Part shown: positions 1,949-45,357 of the stretch, piece after piece | Layout of the letters: each line of letters starts with the position of its first letter | Numbering within the stretch: position 1 is the stretch's first letter | Source: Pseudofrankia inefficax | GTDB taxonomy: Bacteria > Actinomycetota > Actinomycetes > Frankiales > Frankiaceae | Direction: 5' to 3' | Assembly (NCBI RefSeq): GCF_000166135.1 | Contig: NC_014666.1 | Location: 1,116,001 to 1,180,000, forward strand | Length of the DNA stretch: 64,000 nt | Notes under the pieces: model-generated | What the model was told of the DNA's origin: nothing | The model's database searches: none | The model's input: only the letters and a program-made list of their open reading frames with translations | Program-made: the position numbers and the translations under genes

Positions 1949-2761
1949 ATGTCGCATTCCTTCATTCCGCCTGTCTTCTCTCGGGACATTCCTTCGACTG
2001 TTGCCGGTGAGGCGGCGACGGCTGAGGACATGGCGCGGGTCACTGAAGCGGACTGGGCTGAGATCGTCGGCCACGCCCGTCGGTACTGTCGGAAGATCGA
2101 CGCCACCCGGTCACGGAAGCGTGCGGACGGTTCGGCCACGATCGCGCGAGACGGCTACGGGAGCTACGGCAGTGACGACGTGGCCGACGACGTCGCCCAG
2201 GACGCCGTCCTGATCTTCGCCCGCCGGCTCGGTGTGATCATGAGCCGGTGTGTGGTCGCGTCCGTCAACGTGGCCACCCGCGAACCCGACCAGTGGCAGT
2301 ACCAGCCGAAGGTGGGGGAGATGTTCCTCGCGGATCGTGCCCTGATCCGGGCGTGGGCCGTGCCGGAAGCGGCCAAGCGCAACGGCTACCGCCCGGTCAA
2401 GCCCACGGACGCCACCTCGCCGGAAGTGGTCGACCAGCGTGCCCGGTATCTGGCCACCGTCACGTTCCTCGCGGGCATGTCCGAAGCGATCTTCGCGGAA
2501 GCGTGGGCCGACGGAAGCGACTTCCCGATTCTCAGCAAGGTCATGGACGTGGCGAGCCGCGCCGATGACCTCGGCCGGACCGGTGTGTTCTCGGGCGTGG
2601 CCCAGCAGATGTACGGCGGCAAATACGGCTCGGGACGTCCCGTGCGCAAGGTCCGGGACGCTGCCCGCGCGGAAGCACACGAACTCACCGAACGCTGTGA
2701 CGCCATCCGCGACCGACTCACCTACCAAGAACAGCCCAAAGACCACCCCCCGACCGACTGA
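1949..2761 (+). CDS. Sigma-70 region 2-like protein of unknown role
   Basis: 270 residues from the ATG at 1949, which has GGAG six bases upstream; an ATG at 1937 in the same frame is the alternative and contains that GGAG. Residues about 25-85 resemble sigma-70 region 2, with an acidic SDDVADDVAQDAVLIFARRL helix like the DAEDxxQEvFlrlw core-binding helix. No region 4 is recognisable, so it may be a degenerate or diverged sigma-like regulator. The C-terminal 100 residues (GSDFPILSKVMDVASRADDL and following) recur in a broken paralogue at 5625-6049. A strong terminator and then a 40-unit repeat array follow the stop. Function unknown; the sigma link is an inference from sequence pattern. Confidence 0.6.
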   Translation: MSHSFIPPVFSRDIPSTVAGEAATAEDMARVTEADWAEIVGHARRYCRKIDATRSRKRADGSATIARDGYGSYGSDDVADDVAQDAVLIFARRLGVIMSRCVVASVNVATREPDQWQYQPKVGEMFLADRALIRAWAVPEAAKRNGYRPVKPTDATSPEVVDQRARYLATVTFLAGMSEAIFAEAWADGSDFPILSKVMDVASRADDLGRTGVFSGVAQQMYGGKYGSGRPVRKVRDAARAEAHELTERCDAIRDRLTYQEQPKDHPPTD

Positions 2762-2779
2762 CACCCCAGCACCGACCAG

Positions 2780-2808
2780 GGAGCCTCCGAGCACAGCTCG
2801 GAGGCTCC
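2780..2808 (+). terminator. Strong intrinsic terminator
   Basis: A perfect 13-bp stem (GGAGCCTCCGAGC / GCTCGGAGGCTCC) with a 3-nt ACA loop, followed by tcccctttt, lies 19 bp after the stop of the sigma-like gene. A related hairpin follows the broken paralogue at 6075-6097. Confidence 0.85.
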
Positions 2809-2821
2809 TCCCCTTTTCACC

Positions 2822-3581
2822 GTGCCGGGCTCCGCCGGCCGTGCCGGGCTCCGCCGGCCGTGCCGGGCTCCGCCGGCCGTGCCGGGCTCCGCCGGCCGTG
2901 CCGGGCTCCGCCGGCCGTGCCGGGCTCCGCCGGCCGTGCCGGGCTCCGCCGGCCGTGCCGGGCTCCGCCGGCCGTGCCGGGCTCCGCCGGCCGTGCCGGG
3001 CTCCGCCGGCCGTGCCGGGCTCCGCCGGCCGTGCCGGGCTCCGCCGGCCGTGCCGGGCTCCGCCGGCCGTGCCGGGCTCCGCCGGCCGTGCCGGGCTCCG
3101 CCGGCCGTGCCGGGCTCCGCCGGCCGTGCCGGGCTCCGCCGGCCGTGCCGGGCTCCGCCGGCCGTGCCGGGCTCCGCCGGCCGTGCCGGGCTCCGCCGGC
3201 CGTGCCGGGCTCCGCCGGCCGTGCCGGGCTCCGCCGGCCGTGCCGGGCTCCGCCGGCCGTGCCGGGCTCCGCCGGCCGTGCCGGGCTCCGCCGGCCGTGC
3301 CGGGCTCCGCCGGCCGTGCCGGGCTCCGCCGGCCGTGCCGGGCTCCGCCGGCCGTGCCGGGCTCCGCCGGCCGTGCCGGGCTCCGCCGGCCGTGCCGGGC
3401 TCCGCCGGCCGTGCCGGGCTCCGCCGGCCGTGCCGGGCTCCGCCGGCCGTGCCGGGCTCCGCCGGCCGTGCCGGGCTCCGCCGGCCGTGCCGGGCTCCGC
3501 CGGCCGTGCCGGGCTCCGCCGGCCGTGCCGGGCTCCGCCGGCCGTGCCGGGCTCCGCCGGCCGTGCCGGGCTCCGCCGGCC
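2822..3581 (+). repeat. 40 perfect tandem copies of a 19-bp unit
   Basis: The 760 bp are exactly 40 copies of GTGCCGGGCTCCGCCGGCC with no visible variant. Each unit contains GCCGG-GCTCCG-CCGGC, a 5-bp stem with a 6-nt loop, so the array is a row of 40 small hairpins on either strand. The unit has no stop in any frame and 19 is not a multiple of 3, so all six frames stay open and give long spurious ORFs. The array starts 14 bp after a terminator and ends in a partial unit (gtgc). Confidence 0.97.
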
Positions 3582-6144: not shown

Positions 6145-6284
6145 GTGCCGGCCACGGGGCGGCGCGGTGGCGTGCTGCCGTGCCGGGCGGTGCCGTGCCC
6201 GCAATGTCGGTCCGGCCCGCCCCGGCCTACCCGGCCCGCACCGGCCCGGCGGCCGGAGCTGCGGGTGTGGGTCGAGCGGTCGTG

Positions 6285-6440
6285 GGTGTGTCCGGTCGGC
6301 GGCCGGACCGGTCGGTGGGGTGACCGGGGCGGGTCCGGGTCCGGACCCGGACCTCGCGATCGGGCTGATGGTCCGATTCATGTCTCGGTGGACGGTCGGG
6401 GTTGGTTGCCGTGCGGTTGAGGGGGACCCGCGATGGGGGA
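6285..6440. repeat. Dispersed GC-palindrome element, copy 1
   Basis: Contains a perfect 22-bp palindrome at 6332-6353 whose inner 20 bp are GTCCGGGTCCGGACCCGGAC. The flanks (tgtccggtcggcggccggaccggtcgg before, cggtggacggtcgggg after) reappear around 30348-30455, and the palindrome recurs at 26049-26068 and, with one mismatch, at 31848-31869. The stretch 6098-6579 holds no gene. Confidence 0.6.
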
Positions 6441-6579
6441 GGCGGACCTGGCCAGCCGGGTGCCGGTCGCGCCGGGCCCTTGATCGCTCCGGTACTGGAG
6501 GAAGTACCGAAGAGTGCACGCACGGTTCCCCTGTGGATGGGATCATGGCGATGGGGAGACCAGTGTGACGAGGAGTGGC

Positions 6580-7776
6580 ATGCGGGACATCGCGTTGTAC
6601 TACCCATGGACGCGGGTCCGTGATGACACATGGCTGAAGGCCGCGGCGCTGTACTGGCCTCGGCTCGCGGTGCTGACCCCGTACGACTACCCGCGGGGGC
6701 AGGAGTCCGTGACCACCCGGGTGTTGCGCGACGAGCTGGACTTCCTCGTCGAGGCGAACCCGGCGCCGCGAGCCAACCAGCTCGCCGATGACTTCCTGGC
6801 ACTGATCAGCCAGCAGGGTGACGCCCTGGTTCGACGCTACGGATGGTTGCGGGAGTTCCCCGGCGACCCGGGGAACGTTCTCGATCACTGCTTCGAGGAG
6901 AATCCGCTCGATGATGATCGAGTCGGATGGGTGCACCTCGGCAAGCTGCGCCCGGAGCTTGCCGATCGCCTGACCGCCACCGGACTCGGCGTTTTGAGCG
7001 ACAACAGGTTCTGGGTCGGGCTGCACCCCCGACTCGCCCAGGTGTATCTGACCGCGCTCGCCGATCGAGTGGCGCGGGCCAACGACCTGGCCACGGTCAC
7101 CGATCAGCCCTCCAGCTACGGGGCCCTCAATGGCTGGACCCTGGAGACGCTCGCCCGGGTGCTGCTCACCGACGACGCCGATGAACGTCCCGCTACCACG
7201 GTCGAGGACGTCGCCGCGATGTACGCGGCGGTAGCGATCGCCACGGTGGTCCCCGCAGGGCTCGGCGATGTCCCGGTCGAGCGGATCGTGCGGGCGCGCC
7301 GCACGCTCGCGGTCGAGTTCGACGCTTTCCGCGATCATGTGGAGACGTTGACCGACCAGCTTGGCGCGATGACGTCGAACGAGGGCCCGGAGTTCGTGCG
7401 GGCCCGGCTCAAGCTGCTCGTCGAACGTGACCTTCGCCGGTCGACCGCCGATCTGGAACGGGGACTGCGCCAGCTGGGCCTGGAACCGGCCCGCGCCGTG
7501 CTCGGGATGACGTCCCTGGAGCTCCCCGCCGCGGCTGCCGCCGTCGCCTCGGGTGCGGGTCTTCCCCTCGCCGCTGGACAGGCAGGGCTGGTCGCCGCCC
7601 AACTCATCGCCTCCAGCGCGCACGCCCACCAGCAAGCTCGCGACCAGCGCCGCGGCGCCGCCGGCTACCTGCTGGGACTACAGGAGGAACTGAACCCCAC
7701 CAGCGTCGTAGACCGCGTCCGTCGCATGTTCCGTCGCGTGTCCGATCCGGCGCTGCCGGCGACCCGGAGCGCCTGA
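6580..7776 (+). CDS. DUF6236-like family protein
   Basis: 398 residues from the ATG at 6580, chosen because GAGGAG lies just upstream; GTG 6565 is in frame too. The N-terminal MRDIALYYPWTRVRDDTWLK and YWPRLAVLTPYDYP are typical of the DUF6236 family as I recall it, a poorly characterised actinobacterial group. The middle is rich in acidic and hydrophobic helices. The C-terminal part has an alanine-rich stretch (PAAAAAVASGAGLPLAAGQA) then a basic tail. No enzymatic motif stands out. It is a single-gene unit between two repeat-bearing non-coding stretches; several such families occur in mobile islands, but no role is known to me. Confidence 0.7.
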   Translation: MRDIALYYPWTRVRDDTWLKAAALYWPRLAVLTPYDYPRGQESVTTRVLRDELDFLVEANPAPRANQLADDFLALISQQGDALVRRYGWLREFPGDPGNVLDHCFEENPLDDDRVGWVHLGKLRPELADRLTATGLGVLSDNRFWVGLHPRLAQVYLTALADRVARANDLATVTDQPSSYGALNGWTLETLARVLLTDDADERPATTVEDVAAMYAAVAIATVVPAGLGDVPVERIVRARRTLAVEFDAFRDHVETLTDQLGAMTSNEGPEFVRARLKLLVERDLRRSTADLERGLRQLGLEPARAVLGMTSLELPAAAAAVASGAGLPLAAGQAGLVAAQLIASSAHAHQQARDQRRGAAGYLLGLQEELNPTSVVDRVRRMFRRVSDPALPATRSA

Positions 7777-7924: not shown

Positions 7925-8035
7925 GTTTGTGTTTCGGGCGGACGGTCGGGGGCCCCGGACCGGCGTCTGTTGAGGGTGGGGACCGAGCGGCCGAAGCGGC
8001 TCGCCGGACGTCGAGCCGCGCAGCATCCGTGGGCG
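7925..8035 (-). repeat. Copy of the tail of a BNR/sialidase-like remnant
   Basis: The minus-strand reading LRGSTSGEPLRP and the DNA gcggacggtcgggggcccc ... ggccgaagcgg ... cgccggacgtcg parallel 26086-26205, where the same LRGPTSGGPLRP follows a recognisable BNR-like remnant. Only the end of that region is present here. Confidence 0.45.
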
Positions 8036-8181
8036 GGGCTGCGGGCCTCGGTCCTGGCAGTCATCGGCGTTTCTGCCCTTGTCAGGTGAGCGGTCTCTCT
8101 TGCCGGGAAACGGGCCACGCCCGCTGGCCGGGCCCTTCTGGAGGGCGTGCATAGCCGATTGTCTTGTCGCTGCGCACAGGC

Positions 8182-8331
8182 CTAGTACGGTCGAGTCGTT
8201 GATCGCTGGCATGCGCGGCAGGCGTCCTGGCGGACGCCTCGAAATCTTTTCAAGATTTTTCGCCGGGCGTCTGGAGGGCCGGGCGTGCGACCCGCTGGCA
8301 CGAGCCCGCCGGTACCCGTGGACCGCTGGCA
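8182..8331. repeat. Iteron-like cluster with AT-rich palindrome, copy A
   Basis: CGCTGGCA occurs in the same orientation at 8204, 8293 and 8324 around the palindrome AAATCTT-TTC-AAGATTT (8242-8258). The order ctagtNcggtcg, ttgatCGCTGGCAtg, palindrome, gggcg is shared with 30709-30800. AT-rich palindromes are rare in this GC background. Confidence 0.6.
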
Positions 8332-8382
8332 GCGATACCGGTCGAGTGTGGCTTGTGCTCGCGAGTAGCACCGGTCGGATGA

Positions 8383-8919
8383 TCAGCTTTTTCTCTCTGG
8401 CTCGTCGGGGTCGAACCTCGTTCGGCGCGAACCGTCCGGGAGGAGGTAGTCGCCGCTGTCCGCGTCGTAGATGGGCTGACCGGAGCGCGAGGCTTCGGCG
8501 TGGAGTGTGGTCTCGCGGTCTTTGGATTCTCCGCCGGGAAGGAACGAGACTTCGTGTGGTACGTCTTCGCGTTGACCTGGGCACACCGCTTTCTTACCCT
8601 TGAGGAGCGGGAGGTGAATTTCGGAGAGCCACGGAGCGAGGTAGCCAAGGATGAAGCCGGTCTGAAGCTCCATCATGTCGTGGTCGTATCCACCGGCGCT
8701 GTTCCGATGGCCTTCGATGTCGAGGAACAGCCCCCGGCGGACCCCGGGTTGGGCTTCGGCTGCCTTCCGAACGAGTTCCAGCAGCATCCTCGCCGCGGTT
8801 TCGAAATCTTCACCAGGTCGCACCACGTGGTAGAGCGCTATTCCTGCGGATCCGGAACGGCGGGCCGAACCGTCGGGAGTCTCCTTGCCAGACAATGATG
8901 TAACCTCCGAGGCTCTCAC
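8383..8919 (-). CDS. Hypothetical protein of accessory island
   Basis: 178 residues from GTG 8919, taken because an earlier start would overlap the upstream gene by 70 bp. The core reads GIALYHVVRPGEDFETAARM, then RRGLFLDIEGHRNSAGGYDH and FILGYLAPWLSEIHLPLLKG, with a basic, charged tail. The conserved-looking D-x-E-G-H could be a metal or active site. It follows the gene 8952-9851 after 32 bp on the same strand, so the two very likely form an operon. I do not recognise the family. Confidence 0.6.
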   Translation of the reverse strand: MRASEVTSLSGKETPDGSARRSGSAGIALYHVVRPGEDFETAARMLLELVRKAAEAQPGVRRGLFLDIEGHRNSAGGYDHDMMELQTGFILGYLAPWLSEIHLPLLKGKKAVCPGQREDVPHEVSFLPGGESKDRETTLHAEASRSGQPIYDADSGDYLLPDGSRRTRFDPDEPERKS

Positions 8920-17010: not shown

Positions 17011-17035
17011 GACGAACCTTCCGAGAGAGCGATGT

Positions 17036-17049
17036 GGATAGGCCTATCC
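17036..17049. promoter_or_regulatory. TetR operator site 1
   Basis: Perfect 14-bp palindrome GGATAGGCCTATCC, 26 bp upstream of the SDR start. Confidence 0.75.
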
Positions 17050-17062
17050 GATTCGCAGATCT

Positions 17063-17076
17063 GGATAGGCCTTTCC
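17063..17076. promoter_or_regulatory. TetR operator site 2
   Basis: GGATAGGCCTTTCC, the same palindrome with one changed base, 13 bp after site 1. Confidence 0.65.
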
Positions 17077-17098
17077 GGTTTGCTCGGCCAGCGTAGCA

Positions 17099-17124
17099 CG
17101 AACCGGATAGGCCTATCCGGTTCG
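17099..17124. promoter_or_regulatory. TetR operator site 3
   Basis: A perfect 26-bp palindrome with the same core GGATAGGCCTATCC extended by CGAACC on the left and GGTTCG on the right. It ends 13 bp before the ATG of the TetR gene, so binding would block its own transcription. Confidence 0.8.
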
Positions 17125-17137
17125 CTAGGATGGGGGC

Positions 17138-25202: not shown

Positions 25203-26150
25203 GACCGGGAACTGGCCTGTGGATCGGGGCGGCCATCGCGTCCAGCAGCGGCCCGGCCAGGGCCGGTCTCGTCGACATCTCCCGGGCTAGCCGTAGCTGA
25301 CGGCGTCCGAGCCGGGCTTCTGCCCGGCGGCGTGGTCAGGGCGCCAAGCGCCGCAGGACCGCGACGATCGTGAGCGCGGACAGCGTCAGGCCAGGGGCGC
25401 CTCGCGGCCGATCGTGGCGCTCAGGGCAGTGCCGGTTGTCAGGGCCACGACCAGTGCCACCGCGATTCGCGATGAAACCGGCGCCGCGAGCAACGCGACC
25501 ATCTGTCGATCACCTGCTGGACGAGTCCGGCAGTTGAGAGCGGACAGCGGCGGTCCGCCGACTCCTGGCCGATTGGCGGGCCACCGCTGTGCACGCAGCG
25601 TAGCCGCCTTGGGGGAGGTTGTCGTGATCCGTCGTGCGTCGTGGTGGCGGGCGGGGTGCATGTCGAAGCGGGACGCTGTCCACGCGGCGGGTAGGTCGAC
25701 AGGCGAGCAGAACCCCGGACGCCCACGGCCACAAACGGCCGGGCAGGCCGGGTTCCGGACGGGAACTCTCTGACTCGCATGGCAGGATAGGCGGCGGTGG
25801 CCCGCCGAGGTCGTCGAGTCCCTGCGGCGGGCCACCGTTACGACCGACAGGCGCTCGCGTCCGCGCCGAGCGATGGCTGGCTGTGGTCTCGCACGTACGG
25901 CTCCCGCGCGGTCGCCTGTGTCCGCCGATCGTGTGCGGGGCAGTGCCCCGTTGGGCTGGGCTCCGGTCGGTCGGTCGGCCGGTCGGGATCGCGGGTCGTG
26001 TCCGTGTCCGGTCGGGGTGCGGTTCGGTCTGAGGACCGACCTTTCCGAGTCCGGGTCCGGACCCGGACCGGGGGACCGCTTCGTGCTCGGGCGGACGGTC
26101 GGGGGCCCGGGGCCGGCGTTTGTCAAGGGCGGGGATCGAGCGGCTGGGTG
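25203..26150. other. Long stretch without a supported gene
   Basis: About 950 bp. A short minus-strand hydrophobic frame at 25386-25502 (38 residues, AVALVVALTTGTALSATIG) might be a small membrane peptide but has no other support. From 25960 the sequence joins the dispersed palindrome family. Confidence 0.35.
26049..26068. repeat. Dispersed GC-palindrome element, copy 2
   Basis: Perfect 20-bp palindrome GTCCGGGTCCGGACCCGGAC, identical to the inner part of the 6332-6353 palindrome. The surrounding 25960-26110 is also similar to the other copies. Confidence 0.65.
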
Positions 26151-26164
26151 TCAGCCACTGAGAT

Positions 26165-26512
26165 GGCCGAAGCGGTCCGCCGGACGTCGGGCCGCGCAGC
26201 AGGCCGCCGATCTCGACGCCGAGTGCGAGGTCCGTGCAATGTGGCCGTTGCGGCAGTCCGCTCGACGCGATCTGCCAGGTATCGCCTTGGTCGCGGCTGA
26301 CGAAGACCCGTGCGTCGGTGGCGACGAAGACCTCGCGCCCGTCGCTGGCCTCGACCGCGAACAGCTGTTCGGTCGGCAGGTTCCGGGCGGCCCGCCAGCC
26401 GAACCTCTCCGAGCAGCAGTTCGCTGCCACGGATCGCGTACGCGCTCTCGTAGGAGTCGAAGACGACGATGTGGCGTATGGCGTCGCGGATGGCGGTGCT
26501 GGTTGGCGCCGG
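26165..26512 (-). pseudogene. BNR/sialidase-like remnant
   Basis: The minus strand reads IRHIVVFDSYESAYAIRGSE, then in another frame TEQLFAVEASDGREVFVATD and ARVFVSRDQGDTWQIASSGL. The S-x-D-x-G-x-T-W Asp-box is the hallmark of BNR repeats in sialidases and related beta-propellers. The frame changes near 26410 and only about two blades remain, so it is a fragment. Its tail (26086-26205) has a second copy at about 7925-8035. Confidence 0.6.
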
Positions 26513-29800: not shown

Positions 29801-30390
29801 GTGCTCACCCAAATTCGGAGGTAACTTGCTGCTCAGCTACGGGATGACTCCATCAACTCGTCCTACCCCAAGGTGAGGGAGGAGCCCTCGCGTCCTGCCT
29901 GCGCCGAGCGTGGATCTGTGGTCGGGTGGGACCAGCGGACAGCGCGACGGGCACCCGACGAACCTCACGACAACTCGGGATGTCGAAGGTTTGCCCGGAG
30001 ATCGACGCGGGAACTGCGGTTGTCGCCATGGCAGGCGGCCCGCCGACAGTCACGCCTCAAGCGCTCGCGGCGGCCGGTGGACAGGCACGGTCGATCGGCG
30101 TGTTGATGCGGACGCTCGCCAGCCAAGCCGCGCGGCCGAGGGCGCCAGCTACGGCGACATCAGCCGAGTACTCGGGACCACCCCGGCAAGGAGCGCGCAA
30201 ACGCTTCCCCGGACTGCGCGGCACCGGCCACCCGGCGGCAGTCACTGTTACCGGCCTGCCCGCGCCTCCCATGCGCGACAGGCCGGACACAACAACCACA
30301 GTTACTGCGCCACCTCCCGCCGCTTCCCGGGTGCGGGTCCTGCGTCGTGGATGTGTCCGGTCAGCGGCCAGACCGGTCGGCCACCCGACC

Positions 30391-30406
30391 GGTCCGGCCC
30401 CGGACC
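30391..30406. repeat. Dispersed GC-palindrome element, diverged copy
   Basis: GGTCCGG-CC-CCGGACC, arms of 7 bp. It is bounded by gtgtccggtcagcggccagaccggtcgg on the left and agcggacggtcgggttgg on the right, which align with the flanks of the 6332-6353 palindrome. Confidence 0.5.
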
Positions 30407-30693
30407 TCGCCGTCCGGAGTGACGGTCGGACTCGTGCCTCAGCGGACGGTCGGGTTGGAGTCCGCGCGGATGAGGAGAGAGGACGCGATGGGCCACCGCC
30501 CACGCGCGGTCAGGCGCGCACGGTGGTCATAGCCGGCTCTGGGAACGGCGACGATCGATGGCGTGTGCTGGGGATATTGACCTGGTTCGGCTTTCGCCGG
30601 GTGCCAGCGGAGGGCTAGCGGTCCGCGTGTTGGGCGCGGCTGCCAGCGATTGGCGTGCATTCCCTACCGCGTGCGTGCGTGGACACTTTTCAC

Positions 30694-31030
30694 CGCTGGC
30701 ATCGGGGCTAGTCCGGTCGGACTATTGATCGCTGGCATGGCGCAGCTGCATTGCGAGGGTCGTTCCAAATCTTTTCCAAGATTTTCTGCTGGGCGCCTAG
30801 GGGAGCCCGCGGTGCGGTCCGCTGGGCAGAAGCAAGGGCCGCCGGTGCGTGGACGGCGATGTGACAGCGTGGCAGCTCACAGGCCTGCTGTCAGGTCGGT
30901 GGGGGTCGCTGGCACGGGTCTGGCGGGCGGGGGCTGGGGCTGTGTGCATGGGCGTGCTGTGCGCGTCGCTGTCTGCACAGTGATCTTCGCTGGGCATGGT
31001 GTGCAAGATCGCGCTGTCTTTTCGCTGGCA
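30694..31030. repeat. Iteron-like cluster with AT-rich palindrome, copy B
   Basis: CGCTGGCA at 30694, 30730, 30907 and 31023, all in one orientation, with AAATCTT-TTCC-AAGATTT at 30767-30784. The segment 30709-30800 aligns with 8182-8275 (ctagtccggtcg, ttgatcgctggcatg, the palindrome, then gggcg), so both copies derive from one element. Confidence 0.6.
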
Positions 31031-31693
31031 TCGATGTGGTGTCCTCAAGGCCCCGCCACCCGAAACCTTAGGGCCAACTGGAAAAGGACACCTCGCCGTG
31101 CTCGACGAAACGCTTTCCCTTTCCGCGCGAACCGCTGACCGGGCCGCGCGGGTTCCCCTCGCCCCGGGGCTCCCGCGGATACGCCACGCGAATCGCTATC
31201 CCGGTGCCGGAGCCGATCGGTCACCCGCGCCGGCCGCGTCGCGGCGCGCTCGGCGGCCCGGCGCGACGATGCCCGCCTGGCGGACCGTCCGATCGACGAC
31301 CTCCCGGCGCGCGGTCATCGCCCAAGGGCCGGACCCCATCCCGGGCGGTCCGCAGCCGGACGACGGCATCGGGCCCGGTCGGTCTTCGGTCCGGGCGGCT
31401 TGGCGCGTCCGGCGATCACCATTCGATCGGACTAGTCCGCGGACATTCATGTCCGCTGTGAATGCACGTCAGAGCCTATTTCGATCTCCTAACCTGGCGC
31501 TCCGATGGGTATGCCCCGTTCCTACTATCCGGGACACGGAACCCCTGGTGCCCAGCGGTTCGCTGGGCACCAGCCCCGTAGCTTGCCGCACAACGGTCGG
31601 ACAACTCTGGAGATCGGGTGGCGGAAAATGGGGGTCAAAACCGGGTTTCTTTTATAGCGGCTCCCCCAGCCGCGCGGAAGGAGGCCCGACCCG

Positions 31694-32488
31694 ATGACCG
31701 ACCCGACCCGCCCTGACCCCGACCGTTCCGCCGGCGAGCAGCCACGCCCCCGGCGCCCGCTATCCCCTGCGGCACAGCAGCCAGACCGTCCGCGCCTGGC
31801 CCCCGCGCCCTCGGCGCCGCCGCCCGTGGGCGGGGACGGGCAGGACGGGTCCGAGTCCGGACCCGGACCCTTTCCCGGTCTGTCCTCCGCCCCCGCCCTA
31901 AACGGGAATCCGGACCCGGACCTGGCGGTCGTATGCCCGCGGTCCATTCCCGGATCGGAGTATTTCCCGTGCTTGATGGGTTCCCTTCCCGACCGTCCGG
32001 GGGTTATTCTTGTCGTCAATGAGCCGGATACTGCCCCGTGCCCTGCTGGGAGCGGCTGCCCGATCCTGCCCCCTGCGTCGCCGTTTCCCGAGGCGCCCGG
32101 AGGCGCTATGACGGCCCCCGGCGCCCCGGCCGGCGGCGGGCCGCGGATCACCCGGCCCGACGACGATCACTCTGGCCGGATCGACCAAGCCGCCGCGACG
32201 GGCTCCGGCCCGGCCGGTGCCGGCCCGGAGGCGTCGGTGGGGGAGCGGCCCGACGGGCCGGACGCGCGGGTTCTCCCCTTGCGGCCTCGGTCGCGGGGCA
32301 GAGCGGGCGGGTCGGCCCGGGGGTGGGTGTTCCACGGCGAGGTCGAGACGATCACCGGCCCGGAAGCCGACCGGATCCGGGCGGAGTTGGCGGACGTGCT
32401 CCGTGATCTTCTGCTCTGGGCCGCCGGCCACGACGACGGCGGCACGGCGCAGGACGGCGGACCGGTCCAGGAAGGGGAGGCCGCATGA
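31694..32488 (+). CDS. Hypothetical protein coupled to the recombinase
   Basis: 264 residues from ATG 31694 with AAGGAGG ten bases upstream. ATG 32108 also has a good site (GGAGG) and would leave only the last 126 residues. The N-terminal 200 residues are Pro/Gly/Ala-rich with no fold, partly because a dispersed palindrome lies inside the frame. The last 50 residues look folded (GWVFHGEVETITGPEADRIR, AELADVLRDLLLWAAG). Its stop overlaps the recombinase start by 4 bp (ATGA), so the two are translated together; it may be a small accessory or directionality protein, which is inference. Confidence 0.55.
   Translation: MTDPTRPDPDRSAGEQPRPRRPLSPAAQQPDRPRLAPAPSAPPPVGGDGQDGSESGPGPFPGLSSAPALNGNPDPDLAVVCPRSIPGSEYFPCLMGSLPDRPGVILVVNEPDTAPCPAGSGCPILPPASPFPEAPGGAMTAPGAPAGGGPRITRPDDDHSGRIDQAAATGSGPAGAGPEASVGERPDGPDARVLPLRPRSRGRAGGSARGWVFHGEVETITGPEADRIRAELADVLRDLLLWAAGHDDGGTAQDGGPVQEGEAA
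31848..31869. repeat. Dispersed GC-palindrome element, copy inside a gene
   Basis: Same 22-bp palindrome as 6332-6353 but with one mismatched pair (GGTCCGAGTCC / GGACCCGGACC). A half-copy (aatccggacccggacc) follows near 31911. It lies in the low-complexity N-terminal part of the gene at 31694. Confidence 0.55.
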
Positions 32489-34458
32489 TCGATCCCGGTG
32501 AGCTGTCCCGGGCGGCCGATCCCGGCCGTCCGGGGCTCGGCCCGGCGAGCCGGGCGACGGATCCGGCGCGTCCGGCGCTGTCGGACCTGGCGGTGTCGCC
32601 GTTCGCGTTGCCGATGGCCTTGTTGGAGCGGGAGGTCCGGGTCGCGTTCGCGGGGCGGACCTCGACCGAGGAGCAGCAGGACCCCCGCCAGTCGCTGATC
32701 CGCCAGCTCGGCCGGGCGAAGTCCGCGCTGCCGGAGACGTGGGTGATCGTCGCGCACTACTACGACGTCGAGTCCGGCCGCAAGGATCTCGAACAGCGGG
32801 GCCATGGGGCGGACGTGTCGCGGTTCGACATCCCGATCCCCCGGGACGGCGGCATCGATGATCTTCTCGCGGAGGCTTCGCATCCGAACCGCCGGTTCGA
32901 TGTGGTGATCTGTGAGTCGATGTCGCGGATCGCCCGGCGGATGTACGAGACGCTCGCGATCGAGCGCCAGCTCGAAGCGGCCGGCGTCGCGCTGTTGGCG
33001 TGGAACGAGCCGATCAAGACCGACGGTCCGCGGGCGTCCGCGATCCTGCATCGGCGGATCAACCAGTCGGTCGCCGAGTACGAGGTCTGGCAGACCCTCG
33101 AAAGCTCGTGGGGTGGGCTGTGCACCCACGTCCGGGACGGCTGGAACATCGGGAAACCGCCCTACGGCTACCGGGCGAAGAGCGTGCGGCATCCGAACTC
33201 GGCGAAAGCGGACCGGGGGGCGACCAAGTCGCGGCTGGAACCGGACGGGGCGCGCGGGGAGACCGTCACGCAGATCGCCCACTGGCGTTACTACCGCAAG
33301 CTCGGCTACGGGGCGATCGCCGAGGCGCTCAACGCCGACCTCGAACGCTACCCACCCCCCGAACCGGTCGGCGGGGCCCACCGCGCCCGGGGTGCCTGGG
33401 GGAAGTCGACCGTCGCGGACCTGTTGCGCAACCCGAAGTACACCGGCTACCAGGTGTTCAACCGCCGCGCCAGCCGGTCACGGCACGGCGCGGTCAACGG
33501 GCCGGAGAAATGGGTGTGGTCCGAGCAGCCCGTCCACGAACCGCTGATCCCGAAGTGGATGTTCGACGAGTTCAACGCCCACCGCACCGAGCGGCGCGGC
33601 TCCCGCCAGACCAACACGCTGAACAGCCACCCCGCGACGAAGCGGACCTATGTGTTCCGGGGCATGGTCCACTGCACCTGTGGACGGCGGATGGCCGGGA
33701 ACGTCCGCGAACCCGGCGCACCGGTCTGGTACATCTGCTGGCCCAAGGCGAACAACCGAGGCCGCGACGACAAACTCGACCAGCACCCGAAGACCGTCCG
33801 CATCCGCGAGGACGTCCTGGAGAAAGCGATCGGGGAGTTTTACGCCGAACGGGTCTTCGGCCGCAGCCGGATCACCCTGCTCACCGCGGAACTGGCGTCC
33901 TACGACGACCGCGCCGCCAACGAGCGTGCCGCCGAACGCGGCCGGCTCCAGAAGAAGATCGACGACCTGACGCGCCGGCAGGCCAACCTGCTGCGCCAAG
34001 CCCAGGACGGCGACCCCGACGACCCGTTCACCCAAGGGCTACGCGCCACGTACAACGACCTCGACGCGGAACGCAAGGTCACCCTCGCGAAGATCCAAGA
34101 ACTAGACGAGGCCGACGACGCCGAACCCGAACGGCCCGGACCCGACAACCTCCAACTCCTCGACGCCCTACCGGAACTCGCCCTCAAGCTCCACCAGGCA
34201 CCCGAAGCGTTGCAACGACGCCTCTACGAGATCACCCAACTCACCGTCCAACTCGATCACGAAAGGCAGGAAGTCAAGATGATGATCAAAATACCGGCCG
34301 TCGACCTCGACCAGGTCGCAACCCTCGCGGAAGGAGCCGCCAAGCCCCCCGCGCGCACGGCACCCACAAGAACTCTCTCTCGCGTGGATGCTGTACGTGC
34401 CCCCGGCAGGATTCGAACCTGCGCACCTGCCTCCGGAGGGCAGTGCTCTATCCCCTGA
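32485..34458 (+). CDS. Large serine recombinase (integrase)
   Basis: 657 residues. Catalyses site-specific strand exchange through a serine nucleophile. Resolvase domain from about residue 50: VRVAFAGRTSTEEQQDPRQS (Arg58, Ser60 as nucleophile candidate), CESMSRIARRMYE. The recombinase domain (YGYRAK, YYRKLGYGAIAEALNAD, WGKSTVADLLRNPKYTGYQV) follows, then a zinc-ribbon-like part (MVHCTCGRRMAG, WYICWPKAN) and a coiled coil at about 475-550. The last 20 residues are encoded by the antisense of tRNA-Arg (34398-34469), so the gene ends inside the presumed attachment site. Most tRNA-targeting integrases are tyrosine enzymes, so this arrangement is unusual. Confidence 0.93.
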   Translation: MIDPGELSRAADPGRPGLGPASRATDPARPALSDLAVSPFALPMALLEREVRVAFAGRTSTEEQQDPRQSLIRQLGRAKSALPETWVIVAHYYDVESGRKDLEQRGHGADVSRFDIPIPRDGGIDDLLAEASHPNRRFDVVICESMSRIARRMYETLAIERQLEAAGVALLAWNEPIKTDGPRASAILHRRINQSVAEYEVWQTLESSWGGLCTHVRDGWNIGKPPYGYRAKSVRHPNSAKADRGATKSRLEPDGARGETVTQIAHWRYYRKLGYGAIAEALNADLERYPPPEPVGGAHRARGAWGKSTVADLLRNPKYTGYQVFNRRASRSRHGAVNGPEKWVWSEQPVHEPLIPKWMFDEFNAHRTERRGSRQTNTLNSHPATKRTYVFRGMVHCTCGRRMAGNVREPGAPVWYICWPKANNRGRDDKLDQHPKTVRIREDVLEKAIGEFYAERVFGRSRITLLTAELASYDDRAANERAAERGRLQKKIDDLTRRQANLLRQAQDGDPDDPFTQGLRATYNDLDAERKVTLAKIQELDEADDAEPERPGPDNLQLLDALPELALKLHQAPEALQRRLYEITQLTVQLDHERQEVKMMIKIPAVDLDQVATLAEGAAKPPARTAPTRTLSRVDAVRAPGRIRTCAPASGGQCSIP

Positions 34459-34469
34459 GCTACGGGGGC
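34398..34469 (-). tRNA. tRNA-Arg (anticodon CCG)
   Basis: The minus strand folds as a 72-nt cloverleaf: acceptor GCCCCCG/CGGGGGC with discriminator A, D arm GCTC-AGGGGATA-GAGC, anticodon arm CTGCC-CTCCGGA-GGCAG (anticodon CCG, reading CGG), 4-nt variable loop, T arm GCAGG-TTCGAAT-CCTGC. No CCA is encoded. Its 3' end faces the serine recombinase and the island. Confidence 0.97.
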
Positions 34470-45195: not shown

Positions 45196-45357
45196 ACTAG
45201 GACGCGGGAGGCCGGTGTTACAGGGCTGGCGGCGGGCCGTGGGCGCGCCGTTGGCTCGGTCGAAGGTCTGGCAGACTTGGGCTGGTAACAGGCTCCGGTT
45301 CACGCCGTGGCGACACGCGACGGCGACCCGGCGGCCAACGTGAGAAGAGGGACCACC

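Follow-up and report, generated by a model that had tools for sequence, protein, structure and literature searches.

A site of short direct repeats around an AT-rich stretch, shared with complete ICEs of related genomes, lies in two copies (A and B) in an integrated element of Pseudofrankia inefficax, and in our estimation, held with even confidence, it may be the origin-of-transfer region (plus operator sites) of an ICE family with a MOBC-type (PF13814) relaxase. The source element carries the site, an integrase and a PF13814 gene, and no conjugation operon was found in it, so it would be a mobilizable island using the secretion system of another element; the putative site is probably kept in the island so that this other element can move it. 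The window analyzed here is the whole stretch of 64,000 nucleotides (positions 1,116,001 to 1,180,000 of contig NC_014666.1), and its features are collected in Table 1.

Table 1. Positions of the site, its repeats, the related modules and the integration genes, counted from the first nucleotide of the window
Feature	Position	Strand	Remarks
Module part X	6278..6401	+	With palindrome GGTCCGGGTCCGGACCCGGACC; separated from copy A by DUF6236 gene
Module part Y, left of copy A	7934..8025	+	88-92% like stretches of 26087-26201
Copy A, block 1 of the conserved site	8165..8299	+	Model R2, 113.6 bits; homology to B; no block 2 after it
Copy A repeats CGCTGGCA	8204, 8293, 8324 (span 8204..8331)	+	
Copy A AT-rich palindrome	8242..8258	+	AAATCTT-TTC-AAGATTT
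Further module copy (X-Y)	25994..26201	+	Without repeats; 90-93% like L186/L187
Module part X, left of copy B	30343..30455	+	Diverged
Copy B repeats CGCTGGCA	30694, 30730, 30907, 31023; 30602, 30641 (span 30602..31030)	+; -	First four +, last two -
Copy B, block 1	30692..30826	+	Model R2, 95.4 bits
Copy B AT-rich palindrome	30767..30784	+	AAATCTT-TTCC-AAGATTT
Copy B, block 2	30924..31044	+	GATCTT..AAGATC..TTTTCGCTGGCA..GATGTGGTGTCC; model R1, 111.6 bits
Leader, block 2 to integrase	31045..32484	+	Length 1436-1462 bp, nearly constant in six islands
Large serine integrase	32485..34458	+	Pfam Resolvase/Recombinase/Zn_ribbon; end overlaps tRNA-Arg
tRNA-Arg(CCG)	34397..34469	-	Integration site, right end of element

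The window contains 12 occurrences of the repeat CGCTGGCA where 4.3 are expected, and none of 100 shuffles gave as many as 12; clusters A and B account for nine of them. Six sites inside 430 bp, as in cluster B, were never obtained in 20,000 random placements of 12 sites, while three sites inside 130 bp, as in cluster A, were obtained in 58 of 20,000. The three direct repeats in A and four in B of the preliminary description were confirmed, although it did not list the two minus-strand copies in B. The AT-rich palindromes that it reported are present in both clusters and have no further counterpart on the + strand of the window. As to the order and flanks that the clusters were said to share, A and B are indeed homologous (71% over about 160 bp, E 4e-7), but B runs on into block 2, absent from A, so that the whole copy B site covers 30692-31044. 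The exact 15-mer TTGATCGCTGGCATG has two occurrences in the 8,815,781-base genome and the block 1 model matched A, B and no third place in it; this rules out an ordinary repeat with many copies across the core chromosome, the case that had been named as fatal to the proposal.

The A/B pair is part of a larger repeated module (6278-6401, 7934-8440, 25994-26201 and 30343-31044). Copy A shows 79% identity to the L186/L187 islands of related genomes versus 71% to B. B, the copy close to the integrase, represents the site in full; A, with block 1 alone, is probably left over from an earlier accretion, and the island has the appearance of a mosaic made up of related islands. Several other observations concern these modules. 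The DUF6236 gene (6514-7776) lies between direct repeats TCGG(C/T)GGACGGTCGGGG (6385-6401 and 7934-7951) like a cassette insertion, and the module is unbroken in L186/L187; in the G006 island (L186: 644, 5379, 10156) X-Y modules occur three times at intervals of about 4.8 kb, a pattern that suggests accretion in repeated rounds. The DUF6236 gene between repeats and the G006 spacing prompted the idea of an integron-like cassette array of X-Y-Z modules served by a serine integrase, which was dropped because the breakpoints differ among modules. A further palindrome, GTCCGGGTCCGGACCCGGAC, is found at 6331-6353, 26047-26069 and 31847-31869, that is, in the element and upstream of the integrase.

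Both clusters had been assigned to one island, and this holds: comparison with the tRNA locus of G001 places the left end between G000:C1:1081540 and 1082776, and the single integrated element is therefore about 68 kb long and contains A, B, the integrase and the PF13814 gene. The latter, the one PF13814 (Replic_Relax) gene of the genome (G000:C1:1082776-1083816; L233 6776-7816), lies about 33 kb left of the window, where the preliminary description had proposed to look for a Rep or Tra gene. It is an open reading frame; its G004 counterpart is split over two frames. At the right end, the integrase belongs to a family whose members adjoin the 3' end of a tRNA gene (Arg or Leu) in 9/9 relatives examined. 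This one serine integrase family is found beside tRNA-Arg (CCT, CCG) and tRNA-Leu (CAA) genes, a use of tRNA genes called rare for serine integrases in a 2011 survey (PMC3218068). No repeat of the tRNA 3' end, the expected att core, was found in the window, L198 or L233. In the leader, a GTG at 31098 appears to resemble the start of the ICE gene F2. The cargo includes the DUF6236 gene, EAL, HSP20 and MerR genes, SAM methyltransferases, lantibiotic dehydratases and WD40 proteins. A search of 104 kb covering the source element detected no relative of the ICE genes F1-F8, hence no mating-pore or conjugation operon, and between 1.08 and 1.15 Mb of G000 there was no match to PF01580 (FtsK/SpoIIIE-like Tra), the protein by which an AICE would be recognized. 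With its own integrase at a specific site (tRNA-Arg), no mating-pore operon found, an open PF13814 gene and a putative oriT, the element is a candidate integrative mobilizable element. The model search gave no further match of the site in the source genome, hence no resident helper of that kind was found.

Three features of the window stand apart from the site: a long, nearly perfect 19-bp tandem repeat at 2649-3500 (43 register copies reported), GGATAGGCCTATCC repeats at 17028-17126 between a short-chain dehydrogenase gene and a TetR-family gene, which are probably the operator of that regulator, and an L31-Actinobacteria ribosomal protein leader (Rfam RF03158) at 45289-45336.

We ran models of block 1 (R2, sequence only) and block 2 (R1) on 35 genomes of the related family, and they matched in 14 and 13 of them, respectively. 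Twelve of 14 further loci examined (11 distinct intergenics in 11 genomes, those of L273 and L274 being identical) have the site between the divergent genes F1 (-) and F2 (+), where it fills a gap of 543-670 bp at the head of a conjugation operon; of the remaining two, the G025 locus has block 2 only and that of G033 is a weak match. The leftward operon reads F1-F4-recombinase, and the rightward one in L275 encodes F2, a T4SS pilin, F5, a PrgI-domain protein, a VirB4-like ATPase, a VirD4/TraD-like coupling protein and PF13814. The PF13814 gene was found 9.2-9.6 kb right of the site in the loci long and intact enough (L275, L279, L280, L281 and L282); L276 has different genes at the expected position and the other loci end before it. 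Integrases differ among these loci (tyrosine type in L275, serine type in L277 and L282), which ties the site to the transfer genes and not to any one integrase. Beside the integrase, the leftward operon also encodes a 234-aa protein (L275: 4827-5531 and relatives) with a Recombinase domain only and no resolvase domain, possibly a regulator of integration. The GTCCGGGTCCGGACCCGGAC palindrome recurs in 9/14 loci scanned (9/12 ICE loci: L271-L274 and L278-L282), within F1/F4 coding sequence and in most of them about 420-460 bp left of the site, and is a possible second cis-acting site.

The density of the repeat in these loci depends strongly on place: CGCTGG(G)CA occurs 46 times in 7,004 bp of F1-F2 gaps versus 9 times in 150,749 bp elsewhere in the same loci (6.57 versus 0.06 per kb, about 110-fold). 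Among 28 pairs from 8 loci the F1-F2 gap is 75% identical (47% when shuffled), and the F3-F5 gap, taken as a control, is 69% identical (63% shuffled) and has the repeats in 0/8 loci. We aligned 16 rows, namely the 12 ICE loci, B, L186, L187 and L188, with A excluded; the stretches of at least 5 bases kept in at least 15 of the 16 rows were CGCTG (30694-30698), ATTGATCGCTG (30724-30734), CAAGATTTTT (30777-30786) and AGATC (31006-31010). The left palindrome arm is not conserved, relatives having for example AAGTCTT, AAAATTT or AAACTTT; thus the palindrome amounts to a conserved AT-rich arm, CAAGATTTTT, and a partner that matches it only sometimes. Of the iterons with an AT-rich palindrome first proposed, the repeats and the AT-rich stretch are therefore conserved in relatives, but of the perfect palindrome only the right arm is kept.

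The site is not present in all elements with like transfer genes. The ICE of G002, which holds the seventh integrase relative and is complete, encodes F1-F8 and PF13814, yet CGCTGG(G)CA is absent from its F1-F2 gap and neither model matched the element; both models likewise failed to find the site in three Streptomycetaceae plasmid regions with 55-61% identical VirB4; MOB-suite typed two of these plasmids as non-mobilizable and one as mobilizable with a MOBP relaxase. An oriT would be expected in such elements, though oriT may diverge. In plasmids, copy A and F2 had no match, and an ICE intergenic matched once, over 37 bp. A strict DNA pattern matched 95 stretches in genome contigs, and among the matches listed none looked actinobacterial; they were taken as chance, as were 38 matching stretches in viral contigs, in which the site model finds two short fragments only (E 0.04-0.09).

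Outside complete ICEs, the region upstream of the integrase is partly or wholly homologous to B in six relatives with a homologous integrase (L186-L191). Block 2 is present in 7/7 integrase-linked islands examined, the source island included, and it lies 1436-1462 bp from the integrase start in six of them, again including the source; in L191 the integrase match lacks the N-terminus. Block 1 is present in the source island, L186, L187 and L188 and absent in L189, L190 and L191, that is, missing in 3/7 islands (G015:C127, G016:C222 and G026:C8), and is therefore not essential to all of them. Relatives of F1-F8 were not found in the islands of G004 (45.5 kb), G006 (54 kb) and G016 (37.5 kb), nor in those of G019, G026 and G015, where the stretch searched was 6-17 kb each. 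Five of the seven island genomes also have a site-bearing ICE versus 6/28 others (Fisher p 0.02, kinship ignored); when G025, with block 2 and no integrase beside it, is counted as an island, the figure is 5/8 (two-sided p 0.08, one-sided 0.045).

These results fit a transfer origin in two respects: the site is a non-coding cis region in conjugative elements with a relaxase gene (12/14 loci, with PF13814 in 5), and its direct repeats (46 in 7.0 kb versus 9 in 150.7 kb) could serve as a putative relaxase binding site. PF13814 is listed as a MOBC relaxase (MobC) family in the excerpted text of a survey of streptococcal mobilizable elements (PMC5357655), MOBC relaxases are described as PD-(D/E)XK-like, and for one of them, TraX of pAD1, the binding site in oriT consists of five direct repeats at 70-120 bp from nic (PMC12857230). 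In the mechanism that we propose, the relaxase or an accessory protein would bind the CGCTGG(G)CA repeats, the strands would open more easily at the AT-rich CAAGATTTTT stretch, and one of them, after a nick close by, would be passed to the coupling protein; a helper element would then move the island with its secretion system. A repeat-rich non-coding site at the operon head, kept in operon-less islands with an integrase, fits known oriT-mimicking islands, in which oriT copies that of the helper ICE (PMC5397120, PMC11389934). A wider claim is that one common transfer origin of 550 bp, read by the MOBC relaxase through CGCTGG(G)CA, serves complete ICEs with a T4SS as well as islands lacking one throughout the family, and that the two versions in the source island, being of different lineages, could widen its set of helpers; as a whole we regard this as doubtful.

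The same layout could be purely regulatory, a divergent promoter/operator array by which an element-coded regulator (e.g. F2) switches the conjugation operon and which, in islands, would link the integrase to the regulator that an arriving ICE brings. This is the main rival of the transfer origin; we judge it rather unlikely, yet an array of this kind is still plausible because of the divergent promoters and the fixed spacing: the site lies between divergent operons, its distance to the next gene is near-constant among ICEs (F2, about 0.3 kb) and likewise among islands, the repeats are direct copies of one 8-9-mer, and cross-activation of islands of the SetCD/AcaCD type is known (PMC5397120). 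However, an integrase start 1.44 kb away in islands is far for an operator, copy A faces no gene of the element backbone, and F2 has no match in Pfam, NCBIfam or PDB, so the regulator stays hypothetical.

The preliminary description had left the choice between replication origin, transfer origin and binding array; a transfer origin and/or operator array is favoured here, since a PF13814 gene does lie left of the window and related elements have the site at the head of a T4SS operon. An origin of replication of the excised circle, with iterons and an AT-rich unwinding region and initiated by the PF13814 protein or a host factor, is improbable in spite of the direct repeats that flank an AT-rich stretch in a G+C-rich genome and of the name replication-relaxation given to PF13814. 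Among the genes scanned beside the site, in ICEs and islands, no match to an initiator was found, and with it no cognate Rep; the sole candidate is 9.5 kb off in ICEs and near the far end of the source island, and PF13814 is treated as a relaxase family in the survey cited above (PMC5357655).

That both copies are inert leftovers of decayed conjugative elements is still less probable. The source element has no conjugation operon, copy A lacks block 2, the module is scattered in pieces and the PF13814 gene of G004 is split, and for copy A alone this explanation is likely; but the constant spacing between block 2 and the integrase across several genera, in islands from which ICE genes are absent, argues for selection on B, and the PF13814 gene of the source element itself is open. 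Rightward transcription of the site into a structured RNA, as a leader or a small RNA, is very improbable: there are several hairpins, and changes compatible with G-U in few pairs, but folding energies are ordinary in most members and alike on both strands (z +0.7 to -3.4 on the + strand, source and relatives, the L188 stretch used being only partly homologous), covariation terms are near zero, Rfam has no match at the site, and the orientation of the repeats flips among relatives (L188), as expected of DNA sites. The GTCCGGGTCCGGACCCGGAC palindrome is reminiscent of the TRS octamer of Streptomyces TraB; a TraB/clt site was rejected, the element having no PF01580 gene, and in ICE loci this palindrome sits inside F1/F4 coding sequence.

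Should copy B be an oriT, it would account for the possible spread of large tRNA islands devoid of transfer genes among these actinobacteria. They are hard to transform, and an oriT would be useful there as a genetic tool, for which this short cis-acting sequence would be a candidate. It would also point to a conjugation system in soil actinobacteria invisible to a MOBF-restricted census. The actinobacterial census recorded 17 T4SS-type ICEs, one of them in Frankia; its T4SS search was confined to MOBF relaxases and would have passed over a MOBC family (PMC3218068). No description of the site was found in the literature on Frankia oriT and relaxases and on MOBC/pAD1 oriT repeats, a mostly open-access and partly excerpted body of text.

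Among known systems, the AICEs and the T4SS-type ICE Fcci3350 of Frankia (Ghinet et al. 2011) are alike in being integrative, mostly at tRNA genes, and probably belong to the same bacterial group, whereas the AICEs have one FtsK-like Tra protein (PMC3218068). The streptococcal IMEs with Rel_PF13814/MobC share with the source element a PF13814 gene, a serine integrase and the absence of a mating-pore operon, but the two described encode a VirD4 coupling protein, and none was found in the source element (PMC5357655). The oriT of the enterococcal plasmid pAD1, served by the MOBC relaxase TraX, is similarly a direct-repeat region in elements with a MOBC-family gene, a likeness of description and not of sequence (PMC12857230). 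The islands of the MGIVflInd1 type, mobilized by SXT/R391 ICEs, belong to another phylum and the source island, whose mobilization is putative, has its own PF13814/MOBC gene; yet both have an integrase, no mating-pore operon and a non-coding site shared with the transfer region of an ICE (PMC5397120).
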